This document shows positions 12,606 to 26,421 of a DNA stretch of 45,000 nt, piece by piece (position 1 is the stretch's first letter; the number at the start of each line of letters is the position of its first letter). The stretch is from the NCBI RefSeq assembly GCF_002355375.1, contig NZ_AP017312.1, positions 292,501 to 337,500 on the forward strand, given 5' to 3'. This stretch comes from Aneurinibacillus soli. GTDB taxonomy: Bacteria > Bacillota > Bacilli > Aneurinibacillales > Aneurinibacillaceae. The position numbers and the translations under genes are program-made. A model generated the notes under the pieces. It did not search any database and was not told the origin of the DNA. It saw nothing but the letters and a program-made list of their open reading frames with translations.

Positions 12606-13568
12606 ATGATGCAAAGCTTAGTTCTATGCACCGAAGGCACCTGCACCTTAGACATAACAGACAATATACTGGATAAATATCATGTAGAGCTGATACGATT
12701 TGACCTCGCATGGGAACTATTTCTCGGACAAAGTGGGCGAAACGAAACAGGCGAGCTAGATATCCCTGCCGGCAATCCTCGTACCAAATGGTTCGGGCTT
12801 CATCAATGGCTGCGCAGTACACTTGGCTTACATGTCGATATACTGCATACTGAACCGAAGCGACTGCTTGCTGTGCTACCACCGTCCTCCCTCGCAGCGT
12901 ATGAATACGTAACCCGTACCTTATCCATGTATTCTACGTCTCTTGGTGTTCTTCACACAGGTAAAATGAACGGGCGTGATATTCAGTGTGCCATTACCTG
13001 CTTTTATGAGCAAGGTAGCCATGCTGTCGTAACAGATGGTTGGGTTCCTCCCGTTATCAATTTGCATGAAAAACCAACTCCACTGCTGACAAAAACATCA
13101 AAAGTACAGGATGGTAGTACGTTTACGTGGCTCGGCGGGGTACTTGGCTCCGATCGGCTTTTTGCTCAGGTGTACCATCTCACCTCTGAGTCAGGAGCAA
13201 ACCGCCTCCATAGTCACTCTCATGTAGACGAGATGTTTGTTATTCTGGATGGGGAAGGCACGCTCATTACCGAATCGGGAAGTTCCCCTGTCAAAAAAGG
13301 AGACTTGATTGCCAAACCAGCAGGCTCTGGACTTTCAACTCGGCTTCTCCCCGGTCCATCTGGCATGCAAGTACTCGATATTGAGGTCTGGGCACACAGT
13401 GAACAAGCAGATGTTGTTTCGTATCCACAGCACGGAGAATTATTTGTGCGCGGGCGAAGTTTACATCATGTGACCGCATTGGACAATCTGCTTTCCGCAG
13501 ATGATATGATGAAGCGCTATACTCAATTATACCGACGCAATCGGGATGGCACGGTGACAAGCGATTGA
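12606..13568 (+). CDS. Cupin-domain protein with unknown N-terminal region
   Basis: About 320 residues. The frame is open upstream to 12528, but the ATG pair at 12606/12609, after a weak GTGGGG site, is preferred because the upstream part overlaps the tadA start region. Residues about 190-265 form a cupin beta barrel: NRLHSHSHVDEMFVILDGEGTLI supplies the metal-binding His and Glu residues (GX5HXHX3-4EX6G-like), and KKGDLIAKPAGSG supplies the second motif. The N-terminal 180 residues match nothing I know. No signal peptide. Cupins of this type include isomerases and small dioxygenases, so the activity cannot be assigned. It is convergent with the next gene. Confidence 0.8.
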   Translation: MMQSLVLCTEGTCTLDITDNILDKYHVELIRFDLAWELFLGQSGRNETGELDIPAGNPRTKWFGLHQWLRSTLGLHVDILHTEPKRLLAVLPPSSLAAYEYVTRTLSMYSTSLGVLHTGKMNGRDIQCAITCFYEQGSHAVVTDGWVPPVINLHEKPTPLLTKTSKVQDGSTFTWLGGVLGSDRLFAQVYHLTSESGANRLHSHSHVDEMFVILDGEGTLITESGSSPVKKGDLIAKPAGSGLSTRLLPGPSGMQVLDIEVWAHSEQADVVSYPQHGELFVRGRSLHHVTALDNLLSADDMMKRYTQLYRRNRDGTVTSD

Positions 13569-13574
13569 CAACGA

Positions 13575-13614
13575 TCCCAAAAAGGAGGTCGGCACATATC
13601 CTCCTTTTTGGGGG
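13575..13614. terminator. Bidirectional terminator between convergent genes
   Basis: CCCAAAAAGGAGG pairs with CCTCCTTTTTGGG (13576-13612) around an 11-base loop. It lies between the convergent cupin and glycosidase-like genes. The T-run is inside the stem rather than after it, so efficiency is uncertain. Confidence 0.65.
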
Positions 13615-13617
13615 TAG

Positions 13618-14388
13618 TTATTTCTTTGGAATAATCACAAGTGCATTGCTTAGCAGGCGTCCGGGCTTAGTTACATATTTCCCATTTGCATACAAGCCGG
13701 ATGAAGCACCTCCGTCCATATTCAGTGCCGCTTCCAGATCAAGTGCTTTGCAGATTTGTGCCAGTTGTCCGGTTGTAACGTTCGGCACAGTTCCCAATAC
13801 AAGTCGATTTGTTTTTGTATATCCGATAAAGCTGCGCTGCCCGCTCTGTGTTGTAATTTTTGGATCATTCATCCCTTCCGCTTTCGGGTTCAGAACGATT
13901 TTACCTCCTTGCAGCAAGGTCGGACCTGCACTTGTCATATTCTCGAACTGCTCGTCCATTGTTTTAAAGCTGCGAGAGCTTCCGATAACAGGCTTATTGG
14001 CTTCCGTGAAGCCAATAGAAGCTCCGGTCCATCCTTCGTTTACTTCCTGATAATTAATAATGATTTCTCCGTGCGTCTTTTTATACGCCCCTTTATCATA
14101 GGAATTAAAAAATGAACCATTAATTGCCGCATAAGCTCCCGTACGCTTCGCCATACTCTCCAGGCTTTCTGTTGATCCAATCTTATTGCCTGCCAGCACA
14201 GGCAATATCTCGAGCTTCGCATCATTCAGGTTCACATACACAAGCTTCACCGCTCGCTTTCCCCCGCTGAAGCTTACCGTCTTGCCCGTGGCAACTACAC
14301 TGGCCGTTCCTGCTGCCTGAGCCGGTAAACTTACCACTCCCAGCACGAGAGAAAAACTAATGAACAAGCTTAACCATTTTTTCACCAT
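13618..14388 (-). CDS. Secreted phosphodiester glycosidase (NAGPA-domain) family protein
   Basis: 256 residues with a signal peptide (MVKKWLSLFISFSLVLGVVSLPAQA, cleavage near 25-26). The rest matches the NAGPA/YngK-like fold: AYAAINGSFFNSYDKGAY (about residue 88), TSAGPTLLQGGKIV (about 155), and the C-terminal NMDGGASSGLYANGK motif, whose Asp-Gly-Gly is typical of the family. Relatives include human uncovering enzyme and bacterial exopolysaccharide-associated proteins, so a cell-surface glycan substrate is likely but unproven. A GGAGG site lies before the ATG. It is the only gene between two terminators. Confidence 0.9.
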   Translation of the reverse strand: MVKKWLSLFISFSLVLGVVSLPAQAAGTASVVATGKTVSFSGGKRAVKLVYVNLNDAKLEILPVLAGNKIGSTESLESMAKRTGAYAAINGSFFNSYDKGAYKKTHGEIIINYQEVNEGWTGASIGFTEANKPVIGSSRSFKTMDEQFENMTSAGPTLLQGGKIVLNPKAEGMNDPKITTQSGQRSFIGYTKTNRLVLGTVPNVTTGQLAQICKALDLEAALNMDGGASSGLYANGKYVTKPGRLLSNALVIIPKK

Positions 14389-14447
14389 ATCCTCCGTTCC
14401 TTTCCTAAAAATCCAGATATACTACACCGCTTTTATTATAGCGCACA

Positions 14448-14490
14448 GAAAAACAAAACACCCGATTCCAAAAAAGTAGAATCAGGTGTT
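14448..14490 (-). terminator. Terminator of the acyl-CoA operon
   Basis: On the minus strand ACACCTGATTC pairs with GAATCGGGTGT, followed by TTTGTTTTTC. It lies 12 bases after the hydrolase stop codon. Confidence 0.85.
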
Positions 14491-14501
14491 TATACTATTC
14501 C

Positions 14502-15212
14502 TTATTGTACAGCTGCGAGAATGTCTTTACGAAACGAAAGCAGAGCTTTCGCAAATGCTTCTGGCTTCTCAAGCATAATATAATGGCTTGCGCCTTCAAT
14601 TTCGATTGCATTAACCCGTTCATTACTCACAACAGCTTTTTCCTTCGCACCTTTTGGTAAAAGCCGGTCTTCTGTTCCGTACAGAGCAAGAATGGGAACG
14701 GTCAGACTGCGGAATGTATCTTCTCCTTTGTACGCACTGCAAGCCGCAAAATCCGCATGCGTCACGTCCATCGGCACCGCTGACAGCTGAGCACGCTCTT
14801 CTTCAATCAGCTCTACAGAAGCGTCTTTTCCATACGAAGCGGTAAAGAGCATGTCAGGGAACGTGCCTGCTTCAAGTTCAGCAAGAATTTTTGGATGCAC
14901 TGGCATCTCATAATGACTGGCATTTAAGACAAGCCCCTTCACGTGAGATGTGCGGGCCACAAGCTCAATGCCCACGAGTCCACCCATAGAATGACCGACG
15001 AGAATGACATCTTCTTCACCAAGTTGCTCCTGTAACCAGGCCGCCTGTTGCTCAATCGTTGTGCAGTACGGTACCTCATTATCTCCATGCCCCGGCAGTT
15101 CGATGATATGAATCGGTGCACCTTCGAGATACGTCTCGATACCGCGATATTTTGCTTTGGTTCCGCCTGCGCCGTGAATAAATACAAAGGGAAGTTGTTC
15201 CGAAGCCGCCAT
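14502..15212 (-). CDS. Alpha/beta hydrolase
   Basis: 236 residues with a complete alpha/beta-hydrolase triad: oxyanion segment FIHGAGG (about residue 14), nucleophile elbow GHSMGG (Ser near 76), acid in GTEDRLLP (about 185) and His in GASHYIMLE (about 213). No signal peptide, so cytoplasmic. The ATG has GGAGG seven bases upstream. It is the last gene of the sigma-54 operon, 16 bases after the acyl-CoA dehydrogenase, so it may be an esterase or thioesterase supplying or removing the acyl group. The substrate is an inference from position only. Confidence 0.9.
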   Translation of the reverse strand: MAASEQLPFVFIHGAGGTKAKYRGIETYLEGAPIHIIELPGHGDNEVPYCTTIEQQAAWLQEQLGEEDVILVGHSMGGLVGIELVARTSHVKGLVLNASHYEMPVHPKILAELEAGTFPDMLFTASYGKDASVELIEEERAQLSAVPMDVTHADFAACSAYKGEDTFRSLTVPILALYGTEDRLLPKGAKEKAVVSNERVNAIEIEGASHYIMLEKPEAFAKALLSFRKDILAAVQ

Positions 15213-15228
15213 CCTTATTCCTCCTACA

Positions 15229-16371
15229 TTACATGATCGAACGGGAAATCACCACACGCTGAATCTGGTTCGTTCCCTCGTAAATTTGTGTGATTTTGGC
15301 GTCGCGCATCATGCGCTCCACCGGAAATTCCTGAATGTAGCCGTAGCCACCCAGAATCTGCACCGCATCCGTTGTTACTTTCATCGCCGTATCCGATGCG
15401 AATACTTTCGCCATGGAAGCAAGCTTCATCATGGATGGGTCTTTACCTTTACTGCCAAGGTTGTCAAGAGAAGCCGCCGCACGGTATACAAGTCCACGCG
15501 CCGCTTCAATCTGAATCGCCATATCTGCTAGCATGAATTGAATGGCCTGGAAAGAGCCGATCGGGCGTCCGAACTGTTCGCGCTCTTTCACGTACTCCAG
15601 ACATACATCCAGTGCACCCTGCGCGATGCCAAGTGCCTGCGCTCCAATGCCTGGTCGTGTTTTATCCAGCGTCTTCATCGCAACAAGAAATCCTTCGCCG
15701 TCTTCGCCAATCATATTTTCTTCTGGAACCATGCAGTCCTCGAAGAAAATCTCAGCGGTCGGTGAGCCTTTAATGCCCATTTTCTTTTCTAGTTTGCCTA
15801 TGACAAAACCCGGTGTGTCCTTCTCAATAGCAAAAGCCGCATACCCTTTGTCGGTTTTCGCAAACACGCTGTATACATCTGCTGCGCCACCATTGCTGAT
15901 GAAGCACTTCTGTCCGTTCAGACGATAGTAACGTCCGTCTTTTTCGGCACGTGTTTTCATATTTTTCACATCTGAGCCGGCACCGGGTTCCGTCAGGCCA
16001 AATGCAGCAATCTTGCGTCCGGTTGCCAGATCATGCACGTAGCGCTCTTTGAGCTGCTCACTGCCACCAATAATGATAGGCAATGTACCAAGCTCCTGTA
16101 CAGTTAGCACCTGGGAAGAGGACGCGCACACACGCGCCACTTCCTCGACGATCAAGCAGTAGCTAAGCAGATCAAGTCCGGCACCACCGTATTGTTCCGG
16201 CAGATTTGCACCAATGTAGCCGTATTCGCTTAGCAGCTCTTTGATGTCAAACGGGTACTCGGCCTTTTCGTCGATTTCCGCTGCACGTGGCTTGATTTTT
16301 TCCTGCGCTAGTTTGTGAATTCCCTGTTGTATTTCTTTCTGCTCGTCTGTCAGTGCAAAGCTCATTTTCAC
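15229..16371 (-). CDS. Acyl-CoA dehydrogenase (short-chain type)
   Basis: 380 residues, the standard length. It oxidises an acyl-CoA to the trans-2-enoyl-CoA with FAD and passes electrons to ETF. Motifs: AAFGLTEPGAGSD (about 128-140), FISNGGAADVY, the QFGRPIGSFQAIQF segment and RMMRDAKITQIYEGTNQIQR near the C-terminus, which contains the catalytic Glu in the short-chain/butyryl position. It resembles B. subtilis MmgC and clostridial Bcd. The start is GTG at 16371 or ATG two codons later; the GTG overlaps the previous stop by four bases. No ETF genes are in the window. Confidence 0.95.
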   Translation of the reverse strand: MKMSFALTDEQKEIQQGIHKLAQEKIKPRAAEIDEKAEYPFDIKELLSEYGYIGANLPEQYGGAGLDLLSYCLIVEEVARVCASSSQVLTVQELGTLPIIIGGSEQLKERYVHDLATGRKIAAFGLTEPGAGSDVKNMKTRAEKDGRYYRLNGQKCFISNGGAADVYSVFAKTDKGYAAFAIEKDTPGFVIGKLEKKMGIKGSPTAEIFFEDCMVPEENMIGEDGEGFLVAMKTLDKTRPGIGAQALGIAQGALDVCLEYVKEREQFGRPIGSFQAIQFMLADMAIQIEAARGLVYRAAASLDNLGSKGKDPSMMKLASMAKVFASDTAMKVTTDAVQILGGYGYIQEFPVERMMRDAKITQIYEGTNQIQRVVISRSIM

Positions 16372-17228
16372 TTCGTTCCCTTCGTATAATCATAGAATCC
16401 TTTACCGGATTTACGTCCGAGATGGCCTGCACGAACAAGCTTGCGCAGAAGAGGTGCGCTGCGGTATTTGGAATCCTGTGTTTCTTCATACAGAGAATCC
16501 TGTACATACAGAAGGGTATCGAGACCAATCAGGTCAGCCAGTGCCAGCGGTCCAATCGGATGGTTTGCGCCGAGCTTCATGCCTTTGTCGATGTCTTCTG
16601 CACTTGCTGTACCTTCCATCAACACAAAAATAGCTTCATTAATCATCGGCACGAGAATACGGTTTACCGCAAACAGCGGTGCTTCTTTCACGTCGATCGG
16701 ATCTTTACCGATTTTCTCAACAACCTCTTTCGCTGCCTGATACGTTTCTTCTGATGTGCTTTGGCCACGAATCAACTCAACCAGCTTCATAACCGGAACC
16801 GGGTTGAAGAAGTGAACACCGATCACTTTATCCGCACGGTTCGTTACACTCGCGATTTCGGTTACGCTCAAACCGGATGTGTTTGTCGCCATGACAACGC
16901 CTTCTGCTGCGACTTTATCCAATTTTGCAAACAGTTCTTTTTTAAGCGCCATGTTCTCGCTTACTGCTTCAATGATGAAGGACACCTCGCCCAACGCTTC
17001 CCATTCCGTTGTTGTCGTAAGTAATGCCTCGTATTCTTTCTTCTTCTCTTCTGTCAGACGGCCTTTCTCAATACCACGGTTCCAGTTTTTCTGAATGCCG
17101 CTTAAGCCCCGGTCAAAGAACTCGGCTTTCTGCTCAACTGCTACCACTTCAAATCCAGCTTCTACTGCTGCCTGTGCAATGCCGGAACCCATCGTTCCGA
17201 ATCCGATAATTCCAATCTTCTGTGCCAT
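16368..17228 (-). CDS. 3-hydroxyacyl-CoA (3-hydroxybutyryl-CoA) dehydrogenase
   Basis: 286 residues. NAD(P)-binding glycine motif IGIIGFGTMGSGIAQA at residues 4-19; catalytic segment HFFNPVPVMKLVELI with the active His near 140, and a C-terminal six-helix domain with NRILVPMINEA and LGRKSGKGFYDY. The length fits the short single-domain Hbd/MmgB type rather than the multifunctional FadB. It interconverts 3-hydroxyacyl-CoA and acetoacetyl-CoA-like products. Middle gene of the operon, 18 bases after the enoyl-CoA hydratase gene. Confidence 0.96.
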   Translation of the reverse strand: MAQKIGIIGFGTMGSGIAQAAVEAGFEVVAVEQKAEFFDRGLSGIQKNWNRGIEKGRLTEEKKKEYEALLTTTTEWEALGEVSFIIEAVSENMALKKELFAKLDKVAAEGVVMATNTSGLSVTEIASVTNRADKVIGVHFFNPVPVMKLVELIRGQSTSEETYQAAKEVVEKIGKDPIDVKEAPLFAVNRILVPMINEAIFVLMEGTASAEDIDKGMKLGANHPIGPLALADLIGLDTLLYVQDSLYEETQDSKYRSAPLLRKLVRAGHLGRKSGKGFYDYTKGTK

Positions 17229-17246
17229 CTCTTAGTCCCCCGCTTT

Positions 17247-18011
17247 TTATTTATTCTGAAATTGTGGAGCACGACGTTCAAAAAATGCCGCCACTCCTTC
17301 ATTTTTATCTTCTGTCAGACAAATCTCACCAAAAGCCTGTGCTTCTTCATTCAAGCCCTCTTCCAGTGATGTAGCAAGCCCGCGATCAATAACACGCTTC
17401 GCCGCCTGCACCGCAAGTGGACCTCGTTCTAGAATGATCCCCGCCCAGCGCTTTGCTTCTGTCAATGCGTCTATATCAACCAATTGTTCTACAAGTCCAA
17501 TGCGCTCTGCTTCTTCTGCTGATATGAATTCTCCAGAGAAAATAAGCTGTTTGGCTTTGCCCGGCCCAACGAGACGAGCGAGGCGCTGTGTACCGCCGTA
17601 TCCTGGAATGATGCCCAGCTTCACTTCTGGCAGACCGAGCTGTGATTTGCGGCTCGCAATTCGGAAATCGCATGCCAGTGCCAACTCTAACCCGCCACCC
17701 AGTGCAAATCCGTCAATCGCGGCGATAACCGGCTGCTTCAGCCCTGCAATTCGATTGAAAATACCTTGTCCACGCTTGCACAATTCGACACCTTCTGCCT
17801 GCCCAAGCTGCGGAAATTCCTTAATGTCTGCTCCAGCAACAAAAGCCTTCTCCCCGGCACCTGTAATGATAATAGCCGCGCAGTTATCATCAATCTGATT
17901 CAACAGCTCATCCATCTGTTCAAAAAACGCTGCATTCAGGGCATTCACCGGCGGCGCATCAATCGTAATGACACCGAGTCGGTCTTTCAGTTCCCATGTA
18001 ACTTTCATCAT
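17247..18011 (-). CDS. Enoyl-CoA hydratase (crotonase family)
   Basis: 254 residues. Crotonase features: the oxyanion-hole segments IITGAGEKAFVAGADIKEF (about 48-66) and DGFALGGGLELALACDF (about 95-111), and catalytic glutamates in LPEVKLGIIPGYGGTQRL (about 124-141). It hydrates enoyl-CoA to 3-hydroxyacyl-CoA. First gene of the operon; the ATG pair at 18011 follows GGAGG by six bases. A sigma-54 promoter lies about 50 bases upstream, so it is likely transcribed only when the neighbouring activator is switched on. Confidence 0.96.
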   Translation of the reverse strand: MMKVTWELKDRLGVITIDAPPVNALNAAFFEQMDELLNQIDDNCAAIIITGAGEKAFVAGADIKEFPQLGQAEGVELCKRGQGIFNRIAGLKQPVIAAIDGFALGGGLELALACDFRIASRKSQLGLPEVKLGIIPGYGGTQRLARLVGPGKAKQLIFSGEFISAEEAERIGLVEQLVDIDALTEAKRWAGIILERGPLAVQAAKRVIDRGLATSLEEGLNEEAQAFGEICLTEDKNEGVAAFFERRAPQFQNK

Positions 18012-18059
18012 TCTCCACCTCCGTAATAAAAACTCCTTATTCGATATACTTTTATTCTA

Positions 18060-18073
18060 GCAATAATAATGCC
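18060..18073 (-). promoter_or_regulatory. Sigma-54 (-24/-12) promoter of the acyl-CoA operon
   Basis: On the minus strand CTGGCATTATTATTGCTAG: GG (18073-18072) and GC (18061-18060) are exactly ten bases apart, within TGGCA and TTGCT, matching the sigma-54 consensus TGGCAC-N5-TTGCW. It lies between a sigma-54 activator gene and the first operon gene. Transcription should start near 18048. Confidence 0.82.
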
Positions 18074-18134
18074 AGTTTTCCCAGAAAAATTTTTGGTTTT
18101 TTCAAAACAATATGAGATTATATCATTTCTTAAG

Positions 18135-18179
18135 GATACAAAGTTGTATCTTTGTTTCCGAATTGTTTCCTATAGAAAC
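18135..18179. promoter_or_regulatory. Possible upstream activating sites for the sigma-54 activator
   Basis: Two inverted repeats lie 90-130 bases upstream of the predicted start: GATACAA-AG-TTGTATC (18135-18150, perfect seven-base arms) and GTTTC-CTATA-GAAAC (18165-18179, perfect five-base arms). Position and symmetry suit Fis-type activator binding. Neither has the T-tract needed for a terminator in either direction. Confidence 0.5.
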
Positions 18180-18187
18180 AAAAAAAC

Positions 18188-19543
18188 CTACAGCAATCCG
18201 TATTTTTTCAACTTTTGATAAAAAGCTTTTCGACTAATCCCCAGACGCTCGATTGCCGCCGTTTTTGTCCGACTCACTCGCAACGCTTCTATAATCATTT
18301 CTTTCTCCGTTTGCTCGATAGCCCCAGGAAGCCCGATCCCCCCCTCATAAATAGGCGTGGTATCTTCCATCTTCTCTGCTTCTCTCTCCTGCCGAATACT
18401 CTCCGGCACATCATCCGGTACAAAATATGAACGTGGGCAGATCGCTGTCATTCGCTCTAACACATTCCCAAGCTCACGCACGTTCCCCGGCCAATCGTAT
18501 TGCTCAAACATCTCGTACACTTCTTGCGTGAGCGTAATATGTTTTCCGTATTTCATGCTTAAATCACCCATAATTGTATGAATAAGCAGCGGAAGATCCG
18601 GCTTTCTTTCCCGCAGCGGTGGGATATGGATGGGAACAACGTGCAGCCGATAATACAGATCATTGCGGAACGCCCCGGTTTCCATCATCTTGTTTAAATT
18701 ACGATTCGTCGCTCCGATGATGCGTACATTGAGCGGGACTGGATTCGTTCCACCGACCCTACGAAACAAACGCTCCTGCAATACACGCAACAGTTTGGCC
18801 TGAAGAAATAGCGACAGCTCCCCAATCTCATCAAGAAACAGCGTACCACCTTCCGCCAGCTCCAGAAGCCCTTTCTTCCCCCCTTTGCGTGATCCGGTAA
18901 ACGATCCGTCCTCAAAGCCAAACAACTCACTTTCAAACAAGGATTCCGGTAGTGAGGCCATATTAATCGCCACAAACTCACGATCCCGGCGTGGACTCGC
19001 TTCATGAATCGCCCGGGCGAACACTTCTTTGCCTACCCCGGTCTCCCCATACAACATGATCGTAGCTTCCGACTCAGCTACCTGGCGGGCTATATGCACA
19101 GCCTGCCTCATCACTGGAACATGACTCTCCAGCATTTCAAAAATTTTATTATGCAGCTGTTCTTCCAGCCGGGTAGAGTATGTTTTATACCGCTCTAACT
19201 CATCCTGTAACGCGTAAAATTCGCTTATATCTTTCATAATGGCAACCGCCCCGATCAGCTCACCATTCTCTATCAATGGCGTGATATTGGCGAAAACATG
19301 GATGTTCAGCGAGTGAAGATAGCTGTAATCATTAATCAACGGTTGTCCGTTTTTCAACACGTCATGAATGCGCGCTTTCGGCTCAACCTTGCTTAACTTA
19401 CGCCCAATCAGTTTGTCAGCGGGCACACCAAACTGAACTGAGTATGCATTGTTAATATACACAATGGTACTGTCCCGTGCGATGACCAGCACGGCATCAT
19501 GCAGTGACTCAAGAATCGAAAGCAAATGATTCGCAAGTTTCAT
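18188..19543 (-). CDS. Sigma-54-dependent transcriptional activator with PAS domain
   Basis: 451 residues. Order: PAS sensor domain (about 10-115), a short coiled linker, AAA+ domain (about 140-375) with Walker A GETGVGKE (166-173), Walker B GGTLFLDE (232-239) and the sigma-54 contact loop, then a C-terminal Fis-type helix-turn-helix (TKTAAIERLGISRKAFYQKLKKYG). The contact loop reads GSFTGS (213-218) rather than GAFTGA. Such proteins act as hexamers to open sigma-54 promoters. The gene is directly upstream of the operon with the sigma-54 promoter in between, so that operon is the obvious target. The PAS domain probably senses a small metabolite. A GGGGG site precedes the ATG. Confidence 0.95.
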   Translation of the reverse strand: MKLANHLLSILESLHDAVLVIARDSTIVYINNAYSVQFGVPADKLIGRKLSKVEPKARIHDVLKNGQPLINDYSYLHSLNIHVFANITPLIENGELIGAVAIMKDISEFYALQDELERYKTYSTRLEEQLHNKIFEMLESHVPVMRQAVHIARQVAESEATIMLYGETGVGKEVFARAIHEASPRRDREFVAINMASLPESLFESELFGFEDGSFTGSRKGGKKGLLELAEGGTLFLDEIGELSLFLQAKLLRVLQERLFRRVGGTNPVPLNVRIIGATNRNLNKMMETGAFRNDLYYRLHVVPIHIPPLRERKPDLPLLIHTIMGDLSMKYGKHITLTQEVYEMFEQYDWPGNVRELGNVLERMTAICPRSYFVPDDVPESIRQEREAEKMEDTTPIYEGGIGLPGAIEQTEKEMIIEALRVSRTKTAAIERLGISRKAFYQKLKKYGLL

Positions 19544-19662
19544 TACCCATCCCCCTTTCTTTTTATTATAACGTAAAAAGGTAATTTCTTTGATTTACGT
19601 ATTAATAATCCATAAGAACTACCGATAATATAGTTATAAGGACTTACAAGGGGGTTGGTAGG

Positions 19663-19872
19663 ATGAATCGAGAACGAATGCAGCGTCTATCACGTGTTGC
19701 ACATGAGATGATGCCAGAGCCGTCTGTTTCCTACCCAAAAAAGCAACTACCACATACAGCAATTACAAGACCGTTCAAACCATTTTTCATTCATCATTCT
19801 GCTTCAGAATGTGTAGCTTATACAGATGATAAGGAAGAAACAAACACTTCTTCTTTTAATCAGTACATTTAG
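19663..19872 (+). CDS. Small protein of unknown function (69 aa)
   Basis: A 69-residue frame with an AAGGGGG site about 11 bases before the ATG. The N-terminal part is basic and Met/Arg-rich (MNRERMQRLSRVAHEMM); the middle has Pro, Lys and a FKPFFIHH cluster; the C-terminal part is acidic (TDDKEET). No signal peptide, membrane segment or known motif. It is divergent from the sigma-54 activator and lies in a tract with other small genes. Coding status rests on the binding site and absence of a competing gene. Confidence 0.5.
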   Translation: MNRERMQRLSRVAHEMMPEPSVSYPKKQLPHTAITRPFKPFFIHHSASECVAYTDDKEETNTSSFNQYI

Positions 19873-19903
19873 GATATTTTTACTATTTTTTTGAAAATCC
19901 TAA

Positions 19904-19932
19904 TAGATATTACACCAAAAGGTATTTATAAT
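19904..19932 (+). promoter_or_regulatory. Promoter of the 31-residue membrane peptide gene
   Basis: TAGATA (19904-19909) and a perfect TATAAT (19927-19932) with 17-base spacing, about 40 bases upstream of the ATG at 19974. Confidence 0.5.
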
Positions 19933-19973
19933 AGGAAAGTGCAAGTGATTGAATAAAGCGGGGGCGAGCAAGA

Positions 19974-20069
19974 ATGGATCAATTAAAATCAGCTATGTCT
20001 CTATTCGGGACAATGTCGCTGATTATGTCTGTATTCGTTTTGATTTGTTTTGGTATTTCTCACATCTAA
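19974..20069 (+). CDS. Single-pass membrane peptide (31 aa)
   Basis: A 31-residue frame starting MDQLKSAMSLFGT and ending FGISHI. It has a short polar start followed by one uninterrupted hydrophobic segment of about 22 residues, enough for one membrane helix. It has a promoter with a perfect -10 box, a GGGGGCGAG Shine-Dalgarno-like stretch 5-12 bases upstream, and a terminator 22 bases after the stop. A complete transcription unit with so little else in it supports a real small protein. Function unknown; such peptides often modulate larger membrane proteins. Confidence 0.6.
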   Translation: MDQLKSAMSLFGTMSLIMSVFVLICFGISHI

Positions 20070-20090
20070 GGTTACACCTACCTTACTTAA

Positions 20091-20139
20091 TAAAAAAAAG
20101 AGTGCAAAGGGTTTTCGCGCCTTTTGCACTCTTTTTTTG
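20091..20139. terminator. Bidirectional terminator between the small membrane peptide and HU
   Basis: GAGTGCAAAAGG-type stem: AAAAAGAGTGCAAAGGG pairs with CCTTTTGCACTCTTTTTTT around GTTTTCGCG. It has T-runs on both strands and lies between convergent genes. Confidence 0.9.
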
Positions 20140-20171
20140 TCTAGCAACCTATTTTGTGTATAAATGCGAGA

Positions 20172-20450
20172 TTAGCGACCGTTTACGGCATCTTTCAGCG
20201 CTTTACCCGGTGAGAATGCTGGCACTTTGCTCGCTGCAATCTCGATTTCTTCGCCTGTTTGTGGGTTACGGCCTTTGCGAGCTGCACGTTCGCGGCTTTC
20301 AAAGTTTCCAAACCCGATCAACTGTACTTTTTCGCCTTCTTTCAGCGCTTCTGTAATCGCATCAAATACCGCTTCTACCGCCGCAGATGCTTCTTTTTTT
20401 GTCATATCTGTTACTTCTACTACTTTCTCAATTAACTGTGTTTTATTCAT
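20172..20450 (-). CDS. hbs: DNA-binding protein HU
   Basis: 92 residues, typical [23 protein letters not shown] at the N-terminus, then the hallmark [24 protein letters not shown] arm (about 47-70) and the [15 protein letters not shown]-terminal helix. HU compacts and bends DNA and, in Bacillus, also binds the SRP RNA. The ATG follows AAGGAGG by seven bases. Monocistronic, with a sigma-A-like promoter upstream and a bidirectional terminator downstream. In B. subtilis hbs lies elsewhere, so this position or an extra copy is a local difference. Confidence 0.97.
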
Positions 20451-20487
20451 TATGTACTCCTCCTTAACGGATTTTGATTTTCATAGA

Positions 20488-20515
20488 ATGATACCGCCTA
20501 TATCCATTTTTCCAA
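20488..20515 (-). promoter_or_regulatory. Probable promoter of the HU gene
   Basis: TTGGAA (20515-20510) and TATCAT (20493-20488) with 16-base spacing on the minus strand, about 40 bases upstream of the ATG. Confidence 0.55.
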
Positions 20516-20662
20516 TATTGAGCTGGCTTTAAACATTGCTCTCCCTAAATTGTTTGCTCTTGTTGGGCAAAATCCTCTTTTTATCTTCAAAAAATATGGA
20601 GCAGCCCAGGCCCAGGCCTCATATGATGACAGGGAACACAAAACACAAAGGGGGCAACGAGG

Positions 20663-20887
20663 ATGGCAAAAGCAGCGAAAAAACCGGGTACGAAGAAGAA
20701 AATCACTCCGATTCAACATGAGGACCGTAACCGTTTTAATATGAAAGTCGTAACGTCAGATAAGTGCCGGGTCTGTACGCAGCAGTGCCAGCGTGGCCTG
20801 GCGTATCTCGACAGAATGACCCAGCCCGGCACAAACATCGGTAAAGGGGTCCCATGCATCCTAACAAAAGGAAAAGCGTACAAATAA
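20663..20887 (+). CDS. Small basic Cys-containing protein of unknown function (74 aa)
   Basis: 74 residues with a Lys-rich start (MAKAAKKPGTKKKITP) and four cysteines: CRVCTQQC in the middle (about residues 35-42) and one in GVPCILTKG near the end. The CxxC plus two more Cys could bind zinc or an iron-sulfur cluster. No signal peptide or membrane segment. An ACGAGG site precedes the ATG. It is divergent from HU and convergent with the cobalamin operon. I do not recognise the family. Confidence 0.65.
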   Translation: MAKAAKKPGTKKKITPIQHEDRNRFNMKVVTSDKCRVCTQQCQRGLAYLDRMTQPGTNIGKGVPCILTKGKAYK

Positions 20888-20916
20888 AAAAGCCGGGTGC
20901 GGTTCGCCGCACCGGC
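20884..20916 (-). terminator. Terminator of the cobalamin operon
   Basis: On the minus strand GCCGGTGCGG pairs with CCGCACCCGGC (one bulged C) around a CGAA loop and is followed by TTTTTTATTTG. It lies 16 bases after the last operon gene. The plus strand has no T-run after the hairpin. Confidence 0.9.
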
Positions 20917-20932
20917 ATAATCTAATCCAGAG

Positions 20933-22393
20933 TTATGACAAAGACACATCAGCAGGAGATAAGCTTGCAAGCAAACTCGCAAGCGAAGGAGAATCAGTGA
21001 TAATATGCGGTTCGTATCCTGCCTGACGAATCGCTTCTGCTGTTTTTGGCCCCATACAGACAAGCTGTGCGGCGCGAAGAATACCGGAGACATCCATATC
21101 TGTTTCCGCTAAGGCATGCATCAGTACGGAAACAGACGCCGCACTCGGGAAAACAATGGTGTCGCGCGGCTCTTCCGCAAGCACCCGCTCCATCATTCGG
21201 TTATATTCCTTGTGCGGCTGCTTTTCATACAAAGAAAGTGTATCGCACGTATACGCCGGATTCTTTTCGTGCTCCTCACTGCCTCCAAGTAGAAGCCCTT
21301 TGCCCGGCGATGGCCCGGTAAGGATCGAAGCCTGCAGACCACGCTCTGCCAGCCGTGCCTGTGTACGGGTCGATAAAGCGTACAATTCGGCCCGCAGATC
21401 ACGTATGTCGAGCCCCATATCCTGATAGGCCCGGAAAAAGAAACCGACACTTTCTGGGGATGTAAATAAAAGCGCATCATCTTTCACGCTATTCCGGATT
21501 CGTTCCAGCTTTGCCGCGTCCACTGCCGGGCAAAGTGTATAGCGTGGATATTCGACAACGTCCGCTCCCTGTTCAAGTAGCGCATCTGCCATCGTTCCAG
21601 CTTCCCCACCAGTACGAGCTAACAGAATGCGACGGCCAAACAGCGGCTTTTTCTCAAACCAGGCGATGGTGTCACGAAGCTCCACGATAGAACCTACCAG
21701 GGTAAGCGCTGGATTCATGAGTTGTGCGTCATCCACTTTTTGCACGATTGTCGCGAGTGTTCCCGTTACCGTACGTTGACGGCCAAACGTGCCCCAACCG
21801 ATCAGAGCAACAGGCGTATCGGCACTACGTCCATGCTGAATCAGATTCGCGCAAATGTGCGGCAGATTCGAAACACCCATATAGAATGCAATCGTATCAA
21901 TTCCACTGGCGAGCGCAGCCCAGTCAATAGAAGGCTTCCCGTCTTCGCCTTTTGTATGCCCGGTCACGATCGCAAAGGAAGTTCCGTATTCCCGATGCGT
22001 CACCGGAATGCCGGCATATAGCGGCGCAGCAATGCCCGATGTAATGCCCGGCACAATTTCGAACGGGATATGATGAGCCGCAAGCTCGGCAGCTTCCTCC
22101 CCTACCCGACCAAACACGCCAGGGTCACCGCCTTTAAGTCGTGCCACACATTTGCCTTCCTGCGCCTTGCGAACGAGCAGTTCATTGATCGCTTCCTGAC
22201 GCAAAGTATGTTGTTTCGGAAGTTTGCCGCAGTAGATGAACTCCGCATCCGGGCTGGCAAATCGCAGCAAGCGCGGGTTCGCCAGCCGATCATATACGAC
22301 GACGTCTGCCCGCTCCAGGCACTCTCGCCCCCGAACCGTAATCAGCTTCTCATCTCCCGGCCCAGCACCAATTAAATAGACGATTCCTGCCAT
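20933..22393 (-). CDS. cobA-hemD: Uroporphyrinogen-III C-methyltransferase / uroporphyrinogen-III synthase fusion
   Basis: 486 residues. The N-terminal half (about 1-245) is SUMT: VYLIGAGPGDEKLITVRG, DVVVYDRLANPRLL, VARLKGGDPGVFGRVGEEA and VPGITSGIAAPLYAGIPVTHREY are the standard SAM-binding and substrate motifs; it makes precorrin-2. The C-terminal half (about 250-486) is HemD-like (GRRILLARTGGEAGTMADAL, LLFTSPESVGFFF, VFPSAASVSVLMHAL, MGPKTAEAIRQAG) and would cyclise hydroxymethylbilane to uroporphyrinogen III. Such CobA-HemD fusions are known in Firmicutes. Its ATG overlaps the cbiA stop by one base. Last gene of the operon; the terminator follows. Confidence 0.95.
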   Translation of the reverse strand: MAGIVYLIGAGPGDEKLITVRGRECLERADVVVYDRLANPRLLRFASPDAEFIYCGKLPKQHTLRQEAINELLVRKAQEGKCVARLKGGDPGVFGRVGEEAAELAAHHIPFEIVPGITSGIAAPLYAGIPVTHREYGTSFAIVTGHTKGEDGKPSIDWAALASGIDTIAFYMGVSNLPHICANLIQHGRSADTPVALIGWGTFGRQRTVTGTLATIVQKVDDAQLMNPALTLVGSIVELRDTIAWFEKKPLFGRRILLARTGGEAGTMADALLEQGADVVEYPRYTLCPAVDAAKLERIRNSVKDDALLFTSPESVGFFFRAYQDMGLDIRDLRAELYALSTRTQARLAERGLQASILTGPSPGKGLLLGGSEEHEKNPAYTCDTLSLYEKQPHKEYNRMMERVLAEEPRDTIVFPSAASVSVLMHALAETDMDVSGILRAAQLVCMGPKTAEAIRQAGYEPHIITDSPSLASLLASLSPADVSLS

Positions 22394-23781
22394 TACACTC
22401 GTCTCCTCCCTGCTGTGTTCCGGTACTCAAGGCAAGCTGCCACCCAGTTGTGAACCAGGTCTGGCTGCGACCCGAAGTGAAGGTGCGTATAACCCGCTAC
22501 TAGGTTATGAAGCACAACTCCCTCGGACTTCGAACCGAATCGTCCCTGTGACGTGTATGCATGTGGCAGTTCCGCCCCTGCTTCGAATACGGAGTAATGA
22601 AATTCATGGCCGCGTGCCACTGCCCCATCCGGCAGAAGGAAATTGCCCGGCAATCCGGTTACTTCCCGATATCCAAGGGCTGCCCGCTTCGTCTGCATGC
22701 GTGCCTTGCCTGATACAAGACCGATCATTGCGTATGATTCACCGGATGTGGTTACGATTTCGTCTGTCAAATACATGAATCCACCGCATTCAGCAAAGGC
22801 AGGCATTCCCCCTTCGATTGCCTGCCGGATCGACGTGCGGCTGTGCTTCGCATCGGCAAGTTGCGGCGCGAATTCTTCTGGAAAACCACCGCCGATATAC
22901 AGCCCCTCTACTCCGTCCGGTACCGGCTCATCAGCAAGCGGACTGAAATACACACATTCTGCCCCGGCCTGCGTGAGCAGCTCCAGATTTTCTGGATAGT
23001 AGAAGTTAAATGCGGCATCTCGTGCCACTGCGATGCGAATTTTCTTGCCATGTGACTGTACAGCTTCAGGTTCTACCATAATTTCATTTGTTTCTGCCAG
23101 TTCAAGCAAGCGATCCAGGTCGATATTTTGTTCAATCATCTCGCCTGCTTTTGTAAACAGTGCATCCAACTCACCGCGTTCGACAGCTGGAAGCAGGCCC
23201 AGATGACGCTCCGGAATCCGAATTTCATTCGTCCGGACGAGCGTGCCGAGCAGCGGAATGCCACATTCCTGCTCCACAGCCTGCTGAATGATCTTGCCAT
23301 GACCGGTGCTTCCTGCGTGGTTGGCAATTACCCCGACAATTCGAACGGCAGGATTCAGAAGTTGGAATCCCTTAACGACCGCTGCCGCACTCCGCGCCAT
23401 GCTGTGAACATTCACCACAAGCACAACCGGCGTATCCGTCAACAGACTAATTTCCGCCGTGCTCCCGGTGTCTTCTGTCGGGCTTTTGCCGTCATACAGC
23501 CCCATTACACCTTCAATAATTGAGATATCAGCGTCCTGGCTGGCGCGAGCAAGTACAGAGCGAACCGTATCTGAAGGCAGCATCCAGCTATCCAGATTGC
23601 GAGATGGGCGCCCCGTAATCGCCGCATGGTAAGCAGGATCAATATAATCCGGCCCGCATTTGAAGCCCTGTACAGTCAGCCCCCGACGCTGAAATGCGGC
23701 CATCAAGCCAATCGTAACGGTCGTCTTTCCAGCTCCACTGCCTGTTCCAGCGATAATGATTCGTTTATTTCCCACAGCCAT
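22393..23781 (-). CDS. cbiA: Cobyrinate a,c-diamide synthase
   Basis: About 462 residues. It amidates the a and c side chains of cobyrinate using glutamine and ATP. Visible: N-terminal P-loop IIIAGTGSGAGKTTVTIGL with the following GFKCGPDYIDP, NLDSWMLP, and a C-terminal class I glutamine amidotransferase domain with GLYIGGGFPEEFA and the nucleophile in AFAECGGFMYLTD. The ATG at 23781 directly abuts GGAGG, so initiation may really be at the GTG two codons later (23775), which has six-base spacing. The frame is open to 23859 but overlaps cbiG. It lies five bases after cbiG and overlaps cobA-hemD by one base. Confidence 0.95.
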   Translation of the reverse strand: MAVGNKRIIIAGTGSGAGKTTVTIGLMAAFQRRGLTVQGFKCGPDYIDPAYHAAITGRPSRNLDSWMLPSDTVRSVLARASQDADISIIEGVMGLYDGKSPTEDTGSTAEISLLTDTPVVLVVNVHSMARSAAAVVKGFQLLNPAVRIVGVIANHAGSTGHGKIIQQAVEQECGIPLLGTLVRTNEIRIPERHLGLLPAVERGELDALFTKAGEMIEQNIDLDRLLELAETNEIMVEPEAVQSHGKKIRIAVARDAAFNFYYPENLELLTQAGAECVYFSPLADEPVPDGVEGLYIGGGFPEEFAPQLADAKHSRTSIRQAIEGGMPAFAECGGFMYLTDEIVTTSGESYAMIGLVSGKARMQTKRAALGYREVTGLPGNFLLPDGAVARGHEFHYSVFEAGAELPHAYTSQGRFGSKSEGVVLHNLVAGYTHLHFGSQPDLVHNWVAACLEYRNTAGRRRV

Positions 23782-23786
23782 CCTCC

Positions 23787-24929
23787 TTACTGCCCGAGCA
23801 CGCCCACAGAAATGGTAGCGTTGCCCGATTTTTTCTTCGTAAGGGCGAGTGTCTGGCATCCGCTGTACCGTTTGCAGGCCGGTTCGCTGACACCGTACGC
23901 TCCCGTATATTTGTACACGGTATCGGACGGCTCGGTAATATTCATTTCATTCAATTGTTCCGGCGTATAGTACACGAACTCCCAGCCGTACTTATTGCAT
24001 ACATCAAGTAGACCTTGTTCATCTTTTTTCAGCTCAATGGTGCAGAGCGCCTTCACACTATGAAGCGAAAACTTCCGTTCTTCGAGCGTTTCCGTAATCA
24101 CCTGCTCGATTTCCTCCGCTGATGTCCCCCGATTGCATCCCATTCCGAGCACAATGCTTTTCGGACGATAGATCACACCGTTCACTGTCAGTGCTTCTTC
24201 CTCTGACGACAACAGGCGATGCGTAATCAGAAGGGCCGCATTCGGCTGATTCGCAAGGGCCTCTGTCATCGTTGGATATACATGAAGCGAAGGCGGCATC
24301 GGCGTATCGTGCATCCACCAATCCGTCTCCCCCGACTCCTGCACAATGGCGACATGTTCCTCATTGACAACTGAGGCACTGACCGGGGTCAGCTTCTTCT
24401 CAGATTCAGGGTCCCATGTCCAGCCAAAACGACGGCCAAACAGATCAACCGGAATGGTTTTTTGTACGTCCGAAGCAGTTGTAATTACAGGCTTGGCCCC
24501 GATCAGTGCCGCCACTTCACGCGTCAGCTCATTCGCGCCACCCAGATGACCCGATAGCATACTAATCGCATGCTCACCCCGGTCATCAATGACAACAACG
24601 CCTGGATCGGTTTTCTTATCCTTCAGAACGGGTGCAATCATCCGTACAACTGCACCGAGCGAGATGAATAAGATCAGTCCGTCATAGGCCGGGAAAAGCG
24701 CCGGAAACAGCAGACGTACTGATCCCGTGAACAACTGAATTCCACGTGTATCTTCGTCCCCACGCGCAAATTTGCTCATGTAATACAGATCTGCATCTGG
24801 GAACGTATGCAGCAGGCGACGAGCCATTTCGACGCCATGCTTTGTAATGGCCACTATAGCATAGCGTCCCTGCTGCGTAATCGCGGGTACTACTCCTTCT
24901 GTTAATTCGATCAACTGCTGATCGCTCAT
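23787..24929 (-). CDS. cbiG: Cobalt-precorrin-5A hydrolase CbiG
   Basis: 380 residues. CbiG opens the delta-lactone of cobalt-precorrin-5A and releases acetaldehyde (the C-2 unit), a step unique to the cobalt-early pathway. N-terminal part YAIVAITKHGVEMARRL, FISLGAVVRMIAPVLKDKKTDPGVVVIDD and GEHAISMLSGHLGGANELT; C-terminal part with SIVLGMGCNRGTSAEEI. This order is the normal CbiG N and C domains. It overlaps cbiF by four bases (ATGA). Its presence shows the route is the anaerobic-type, cobalt-early one. Confidence 0.96.
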   Translation of the reverse strand: MSDQQLIELTEGVVPAITQQGRYAIVAITKHGVEMARRLLHTFPDADLYYMSKFARGDEDTRGIQLFTGSVRLLFPALFPAYDGLILFISLGAVVRMIAPVLKDKKTDPGVVVIDDRGEHAISMLSGHLGGANELTREVAALIGAKPVITTASDVQKTIPVDLFGRRFGWTWDPESEKKLTPVSASVVNEEHVAIVQESGETDWWMHDTPMPPSLHVYPTMTEALANQPNAALLITHRLLSSEEEALTVNGVIYRPKSIVLGMGCNRGTSAEEIEQVITETLEERKFSLHSVKALCTIELKKDEQGLLDVCNKYGWEFVYYTPEQLNEMNITEPSDTVYKYTGAYGVSEPACKRYSGCQTLALTKKKSGNATISVGVLGQ

Positions 24930-25705
24930 GATGATGGAATCCCCCGGCGAAAACGATGTGTAAACTCCTTATCATACAGCTTTGAACGGAAGCGATCTTC
25001 AGCCGTAATATTCGGATCAAGCGCCCAGCCCGCGAGAATCATCGCCTGGGAACGGATGCCGTTCGCCCGCATATCGTCGTCGAGTGTTTCCAGTGTGGAA
25101 TGGACGATTTTTTGATCCGGCCAGCTCGCACGGTATACGACGGCAACCGGTGTATCCGGTGTCCAGCCCGCATCGAGGAACTCCCCAACTACTTTTTTGA
25201 TTAGTGTTGCACTCAGGAACAAGGCAATCGTACAATGATGAGACGCAAGATCACGCAGTTTTTCTCGCTCCGGCACTGGTGTCCGTCCTTCTGCTCGTGT
25301 CAGGATGAGCGTTTGGGTTAGCTCTGGTACGGTCAGTTCCGCACCGACCGCTGCCGCTGCCGCAAATACGGAGCTGACACCTGGCACGATTTCATAGTCT
25401 ACGCCGTTTTTCTTCAAGAGCACCATCTGTTCTAGGATGGCGCCGTATACAGCCGGGTCACCTGTATGGACACGTACGACAGATTTGCCTTCTTTCGTAC
25501 GTTCAGTCATGATCTCGACCATTTCTTCGAGCGTCATGCCAGCTGTTTTGATTACTTCTGCATCTGGTTTCGCTTTTGCGACCAGCTCTTCATTAACAAG
25601 GGAATCTGCCCACAAAACAACGTCTGCTGCCTGTAATAGCTTAAGTCCCTTTACCGTAATTAAATCCGGGTCGCCCGGTCCTGCCCCGATAATGTATACT
25701 TTCAT
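24926..25705 (-). CDS. cbiF: Cobalt-precorrin-4 C11-methyltransferase
   Basis: 259 residues. SAM-dependent tetrapyrrole methyltransferase: VYIIGAGPGDPDLITVKG at the N-terminus, ADVVLWADSLVN, VVRVHTGDPAVYGAILEQ, and PGVSSVFAAAAAVGAELTVPELTQTLILTRAEGRTPVPE, the last being the CbiF/CobM signature. It methylates C-11. It abuts cbiL (start and stop share one base) and overlaps cbiG by four bases. Confidence 0.96.
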   Translation of the reverse strand: MKVYIIGAGPGDPDLITVKGLKLLQAADVVLWADSLVNEELVAKAKPDAEVIKTAGMTLEEMVEIMTERTKEGKSVVRVHTGDPAVYGAILEQMVLLKKNGVDYEIVPGVSSVFAAAAAVGAELTVPELTQTLILTRAEGRTPVPEREKLRDLASHHCTIALFLSATLIKKVVGEFLDAGWTPDTPVAVVYRASWPDQKIVHSTLETLDDDMRANGIRSQAMILAGWALDPNITAEDRFRSKLYDKEFTHRFRRGIPSS

Positions 25706-26421
25706 TATTTTCGCACCACCATTAACGTTAAGTATTCAAGCTCAAGCCCTTTAAGTTCCGCCACGTTATTCCAGACGATTTCCTCACCTGACGTTACCTT
25801 TGTAATCACAGATGCATTCGGCAACAGATCAAGTTCTCCGAGTACATCAATCATGACATCAATCACTTTAGCAACTTTAATAAACACAACACAGTCATGG
25901 CTAATAAGTGCTTGTTTCATCTCATCCCGATCCGCTGTTGCTGGAATAATCGCGACATGCTCATCCCCGTCTGCAAGCGGCAGACCAAGACGAGACGCGG
26001 CACCATTCACCGAGGAAATTCCCGGTATGGATACGATGCGTACTTCTGGATGCTTCTCTTGCATCAGACGCATCATATGGATGAATGTGCTGTACAGCAT
26101 CGGGTCGCCTTCTGTTACGAACGCAACATCTTTGCCCTGAGCTAGACGCTCATACACCGCTTCTACCGTTTGCGTCCACTCCCGCTCCAGAATATCCGGG
26201 TCTTTCGTCATCGGAAACACCAGACCAAGCATTTCTTTTTGCGACTGATCAATGTAGTTCTCAACAATTTGATAAGCATAGCTTTTGCTGCCCTTGCGCT
26301 TGCGCGGATAGGCAATAACCGGAGATTCTTTCATCAAGCGATACGCCTTCACCGTAATCAGTTCCGGGTCGCCCGGTCCAACACCGACCCCATATAATAT
26401 ACCTGTTGCCATCTTACTCAT
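25705..26421 (-). CDS. cbiL: Precorrin-2 / cobalt-factor II C20-methyltransferase
   Basis: 238 residues. Family motifs: [59 protein letters not shown] and [31 protein letters not shown], typical of CbiL/CobI. It methylates C-20 of cobalt-factor II. Its start overlaps the end of cbiET by eight bases. Assigned by the length and the STFIHMM motif rather than by a search. Confidence 0.95.

Follow-up and report, generated by a model that had tools for sequence, protein, structure and literature searches.

A predicted one-component sigma-54 switch for a short acyl-CoA operon in Aneurinibacillus soli

The region around position 18,060 of a 45,000-nucleotide stretch of the Aneurinibacillus soli genome raises the question of whether it is a working sigma-54 control unit and, if so, which acyl-CoA pathway it would serve. 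An earlier, sequence-only reading had proposed a -24/-12 promoter, two inverted repeats and a dedicated activator ahead of a short-chain acyl-CoA operon. The whole stretch, referred to here as the window, corresponds to C1:292501-337500 of the 4.12-Mb genome (G000; other genomes are numbered likewise). On its minus strand, the activator gene is followed by a gap of ~177 bp and then by the four genes ech-hbd-acd-hydrolase, which lie 18 and 16 bp apart at two junctions and overlap by 4 bp at the third (Table 1). Pfam agrees with the four gene families and with the PAS-AAA-Fis architecture of the activator as proposed. The 3-hydroxybutyryl-CoA dehydrogenase is the sole operon enzyme of the four to score over an NCBIfam cut-off, and the "short-chain" label thus rests mainly on that enzyme. 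Solved relatives of the acyl-CoA dehydrogenase include butyryl-CoA dehydrogenases, not as the top ones. Terminator-like hairpins such as the one 3′ of the fourth gene are not in excess in the region (7 sites vs 7.9 in shuffles), and none was found between the activator gene and the operon, so that read-through from the former could supply basal expression. A search of Rfam over 13500-20900 returned nothing at the gathering threshold. Farther along the same strand of the window, at 20933-26421, translations inspected by eye resemble a run of cobalamin biosynthesis genes.

Table 1 Features of the activator-operon locus (window positions) and promoter-like elements of the ligase leaders in relatives
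Feature	Position	Strand	Basis or detail
PAS-AAA+-Fis sigma-54 activator (bEBP), loop GSFTGS	18188..19543	-	Pfam
Distal predicted activator-binding site TTGTTTCTATAGGAAACAA	18163..18181	-	Perfect consensus match
Possible leftover half-site GATACAA of degenerate middle site	18144..18150	-	In register with relatives' three-site arrays
Proximal predicted activator-binding site TTGTATCCTTAAGAAATGA	18123..18141	-	Weight-matrix score 18.3
Predicted sigma-54 promoter core TGGCATTATTATTGC (-24/-12)	18060..18074	-	GG 18073/18072, GC 18061/18060, ten bases between
Enoyl-CoA hydratase (crotonase family; ech)	17247..18011	-	Pfam; below every NCBIfam cut-off
3-Hydroxybutyryl-CoA dehydrogenase (hbd)	16368..17228	-	NCBIfam NF004474, 411.7 bits vs cut-off 408
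Acyl-CoA dehydrogenase (acd)	15229..16371	-	Pfam; below every NCBIfam cut-off
Alpha/beta hydrolase, candidate esterase or thioesterase	14502..15212	-	Pfam
Terminator-like hairpin, 3′ of fourth gene	14456..14491	-	15 pairs, T-rich tail
GG-N10-GC elements of ligase leaders			G005 TTGGTTTTATTTTTGCA, G001 CAGGTACAATTTTTGCA, G003 TAGGTATATTTTTTGCA, G004 TCGGCACAATTTTTGCA

The promoter core is one mismatch from the 17-base consensus TTGGCAYN5TTGCW and is the only match in the window at one mismatch or fewer. Taken alone, this match was rejected as evidence, since the count is at chance level (one observed vs 1.17 expected from shuffles of the 45 kb) and the looser pattern TGGCR-N6-TTGCW is common genome-wide. 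What makes the match meaningful is its position inside the gap, where the core TGGCA-N6-TTGC appeared in none of 1000 dinucleotide shuffles of the 177 bp and where it is kept in all ten activator-to-operon gaps compared within the order (the window genome and nine others), with 0-2 occurrences per 1000 shuffles of each gap. Comparison of this intergenic region across relatives had been suggested as a check on the proposed promoter, which it bears out. The best sigma-A-like match in the gap did not rise above shuffles. The transcription start of the ech operon is predicted at ~18048, given the usual 12-base offset of sigma-54 starts. Sigma-54 itself (rpoN) is encoded in the genome, and its protein has, judged by eye, an RpoN box.

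Upstream of the promoter, the ten regions share the element TTGTTTC-N5-GAAACAA, repeated at a pitch of ~20 bp. Scored with a weight matrix whose training sites were hand-picked from these same regions, the tested locus being left out, sites were present in 10/10 regions, and 200 shuffles of each region never yielded one as good as its best real site. The outer sites are often ~40 bp apart, the middle site varies in strength, and the centre of the nearest strong site lies 58-61 bp from the promoter GG in five of the ten regions, 71-73 bp in three and 86 bp in two, with additional weaker, nearer sites in G005 and G007. In the window, the array lies ~50-110 bp upstream of the -24/-12 element. Its distal site matches the 19-base consensus perfectly, as nothing else in the 4.1-Mb genome does, and its proximal site, scored with the window genome and G006 both kept out of training, falls at about -75 to -93 relative to the predicted start. 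No full middle site scored above the matrix threshold in this array, and the half-site GATACAA is a possible remnant of one. Two inverted repeats at about -90 to -130 had been proposed as the operators. The first survives as the distal site. The other palindrome found in that range, GATACAA-CT-TTGTATC (18135-18150), was rejected: G006 lacks it, although its activator is 92% identical and it keeps the proximal site as TTGTTTCTTTTAGAAACAA. The palindrome consists of the putative middle half-site and half of the proximal site, and it is the latter, centred ~10 bp away, that is conserved as the second operator.

The activator matches PF00158 (E 5.2e-66), PF02954 (E 1.4e-9) and PAS_4 (E 1.9e-10), and scores 435.2 bits with the PrdR model NF041552, below the cut-off of 795. 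In a structure prediction of the activator from five sequences, pLDDT was below 50 over most of the PAS region, too low to suggest a ligand. The sigma-54-contact loop reads GSFTGS instead of GAFTGA, which counts against the switch model; the loop ends in Ser in 14/15 orthologues, and GSFTGA (PMC6615313, PMC4641369) and GAYTGS (PMC4641369) are given as workable variants in the source text available. Nine other activators of the window genome were also checked, and the loop ends in Ala in all six in which the pattern found it. A sample of 398 genomes of the class yielded 21 with an activator at E ≤ 1e-115. A tree was built from 19 of these 21 activators, two from a soil MAG and nine own paralogues, G221 and G094, which hold further activator matches, being outside the comparison; 15 activators form one clade with support of 100/99. 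Those of G080, G230, G395 and G066, at 48-49% identity, fall outside this clade, and no convincing operator array was found at these four loci, with G080 having two isolated sites of 14-15 bits. In the soil MAG, two related activators (41-42% identity) lie in tandem ahead of acd-ech-hbd, with a -24/-12 element, and the locus also seems, by eye, to hold genes for phosphotransbutyrylase and butyrate kinase.

The order activator-ech-hbd-acd-hydrolase is present in 7/7 Aneurinibacillus genomes, and in all seven the promoter, operators, activator and operon occur together, which, along with the rpoN gene, upholds the sequence-only reading of a sigma-54 control unit with its own activator. Beyond this arrangement the targets vary. 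The ech operon of G228 and G067 is separated from the activator by one or two ORFs and has its own operators and promoter. The order ech-hbd-ligase-acd-hydrolase-permease is collinear in G067, G033 and G228, and G042 has hbd-ligase-acd-hydrolase. G007, G008 and G009 retain the operators and promoter, but there the activator gene is followed by a different kind of ligase and a PF04199 cyclase; G007 and G008 have hbd and hydrolase genes at other loci, with neither operator nor promoter ahead of them. In G103, the activator is followed by a short-chain dehydrogenase and hbd with one operator site, and two further sites lie ahead of a cyclase-hbd-thiolase set. These differing adjacent targets in G007-G009 and G103 count against the switch model. 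Outside the order, two of five class-level orthologues (G033 and G042) fit less well, with no site and one site over the matrix threshold, respectively, and promoters off the strict core; G033 has near its promoter a palindrome whose spacer is longer by one base, found by eye and counted as partial. Judged from the predicted sites, the relatives are a clear case of an activator that keeps its operator while the target operon splits or is exchanged.

The ligase offers a second instance of this predicted control. Homologues of the G228 ligase (62-70% identity) are present in the four Aneurinibacillus genomes searched (G000, G001, G005 and G006). The ligase genes of G001, G003, G004 and G005 stand elsewhere than the ech operon, behind operator-like sites at ~20-bp pitch and GG-N10-GC elements (Table 1), the G003 and G004 leaders having been met through operator or permease matches. 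The nearest site in these leaders lies 59-62 bp from the GG, against 58-61 bp in five of the ten activator-to-operon gaps. In the three leaders tested, the best site was reached in 2/500 shuffles for G001 and in 0/500 for both G005 and G003; of the two sites in the G003 leader, one is strong and the other weak. The -24 halves of the ligase leaders are weaker than that of the ech operon. The second copies of the ligase gene that G001 and G005 carry, like the homologues of G000 and G006, occupy a different setting, without operator. In G000 (C1:3571000-3580000) and G006 that setting is behind a lipoprotein-like gene, whose leader resembles, by eye, a SAM riboswitch.

The permease is a 469-residue membrane protein without a Pfam match that resembles the solved chain 7tak, "Putative membrane protein PurT" (E 2.4e-84). 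At E ≤ 1e-30 it was not found in 8 of the 15 genomes searched, including G000, G002, G005 and G006. A permease gene lies at L138:5356-6765, others follow hydrolase genes at L117, L118 and L151, and linkage to an acyl-CoA ligase gene recurs. At G001:C127:2752-3824, the permease matches in two pieces (residues 1-244 and 352-469), and this gene may be broken or misassembled.

Operator matches with 0-1 mismatch are confined, in the window genome, to the activator-operon gap. Allowing up to three mismatches gave 20 and 30 matches vs 33 and 27 in the backwards control, so further targets in the window genome were rejected, the counts showing no excess, and it has no other convincing operator site. 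Counts exceeded the control in G002, G006 and G008, where additional targets are possible. Six isolated operator-like matches outside the known gaps of G002, G003 and G004 were inspected; one proved to be the G003 ligase leader, and the other five were set aside for having no -24/-12 element in register, as judged with a pattern that also missed the weak ligase-leader promoters, so that absence of such elements is not proven.

Given the promoter and array, their conservation and the linkage of ligase and permease genes in relatives, we consider it likely that this locus is a one-component sigma-54 switch for a short acyl-CoA operon, whose ancestral job would have been uptake, activation and beta-oxidation and of which the window genome holds the core only. 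The activator would bind the operator array upstream of the -24/-12 element, and a DNA loop would bring it to the sigma-54 polymerase. On contact of its PAS domain with a metabolite, for which the substrate acid and its CoA ester are the probable candidates, the activator would hydrolyse ATP and open the sigma-54 RNA polymerase complex to turn on the four genes. For activators of this family, array binding, looping to sigma-54 polymerase and ligand-triggered opening are described as general (PMC6615313, in the text available). The enzymes would then dehydrogenate and hydrate a short acyl-CoA and oxidise it at the 3-hydroxy group, with thiolase and ETF from elsewhere in the genome finishing the cycle. 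In relatives, the same activator would also control the acyl-CoA ligase and often the permease, which points to an ancestral unit that imported, activated and beta-oxidised one carboxylic acid. In the window genome, without the permease and without an operator-bearing ligase, the operon may instead act on internally made acyl-CoA, for example from branched amino acids.

That last suggestion borders on another account, namely that the operon handles branched acyl-CoA from isoleucine and valine made in the cell, extending the BkdR pathway. BkdR of Bacillus is a sigma-54 activator of the isoleucine/valine degradation operon and resembles the present activator in being a PAS-containing one-component regulator of acyl-CoA metabolism, as far as described in PMC4428206. 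The window genome carries a separate paralogue, 41% identical to the activator, that adjoins lipoamide dehydrogenase and 2-oxo acid dehydrogenase genes (by eye) and looks like a BkdR-like gene beside bkd-like genes. This neighbourhood fits an extended BkdR pathway, as do the missing permease and the operator-free setting of the nearest ligase homologue. A purely internal substrate would have no need of the ligase and permease seen in relatives, and we regard this account as rather unlikely.

A comparison with CrbR, the nearest described regulon that we found (PMC6615313), brings up the direction of the pathway. Compared by description, both have a sigma-54 promoter with multiple upstream sites, the TGT-N11-ACA spacing here falls within the operator class TGT-N10-12-ACA of CrbR (PMC6615313), and the targets of both include crotonase, hydroxybutyryl-CoA dehydrogenase and acyl-CoA dehydrogenase. 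Unlike in CrbR, whose described targets include thl and etfAB, thiolase and ETF genes are in neither operon nor window here, and the present operon has an alpha/beta hydrolase, joined in relatives by the ligase and permease. The switch could be as described and the operon nevertheless reductive, from crotonyl-CoA to butyryl-CoA, or feed polyhydroxyalkanoate. In favour are the three core enzymes shared with the clostridial CrbR operon crt-hbd-bcd, the butyryl-CoA dehydrogenases among the lower-ranking solved relatives of acd, and the report, in the text available, of polyhydroxyalkanoate made by Aneurinibacillus sp. H1 (PMC7362256). An operon without ETF or thiolase, and relatives whose ligase and permease suit acid uptake and breakdown, make this quite improbable. 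The sequence-only reading is supported as to an acyl-CoA operon, but degradation of an acid is to be preferred over butyrate-type synthesis because of the ligase and permease that are linked or co-regulated in relatives. Its remark that thiolase and ETF are absent applies to the operon and window but not to the genome, which has six strong thiolase loci and two ETF gene pairs, one in an ech-etf-etf cluster (partly by eye). The genome also has a second thiolase-hbd-acd-acd set at C1:524000-535000 (partly by eye); compared with their counterparts in the window operon, the products of its hbd and first acd genes share ~52% identity.

It is very improbable that the promoter-like sequence is a chance match and that sigma-A or read-through from the activator gene transcribes the operon, since the frequency of the loose pattern and the lack of a detected intervening terminator are outweighed by a core kept in every gap and near-absent from shuffles, by the operators upstream of it and by sigma-A-like matches that do not exceed shuffles.

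Control of beta-oxidation-type genes by sigma-54 is reported as a general trend in Bacilli and Clostridia (PMC12316311, in the text available), and the switch proposed here would work like known ones. GabR of Bacillus thuringiensis is likewise a PAS-AAA-HTH activator, binds repeats upstream of a sigma-54 promoter and is repressed by its PAS domain until GABA is added, as described in PMC4279683, whereas its target is gabT. Eight activators are named for B. thuringiensis HD73 in the available text of PMC4428206, none of them for such an operon. Among the literature matches listed, comprising titles and abstract openings of open-licence papers without supplementary tables, we found no description of this activator group or its operator, which is weak evidence of novelty. 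More tentatively, and as something we hold possible but short of probable, these activators may be a hitherto undescribed orthologous group of Bacilli sigma-54 regulators that acts through its own ~20-bp-pitch arrays on the import of one specific carboxylic acid, its CoA activation and its beta-oxidation, the regulon having been split, rewired and partly lost, and its core having moved in the window lineage from an imported acid to internal acyl-CoA. For a PAS-type sigma-54 activator group in several Bacilli families, the analysis predicts operator, promoter and targets, so that the effector can be sought directly, and the ligase and permease of the relatives would narrow that search to imported carboxylic acids.
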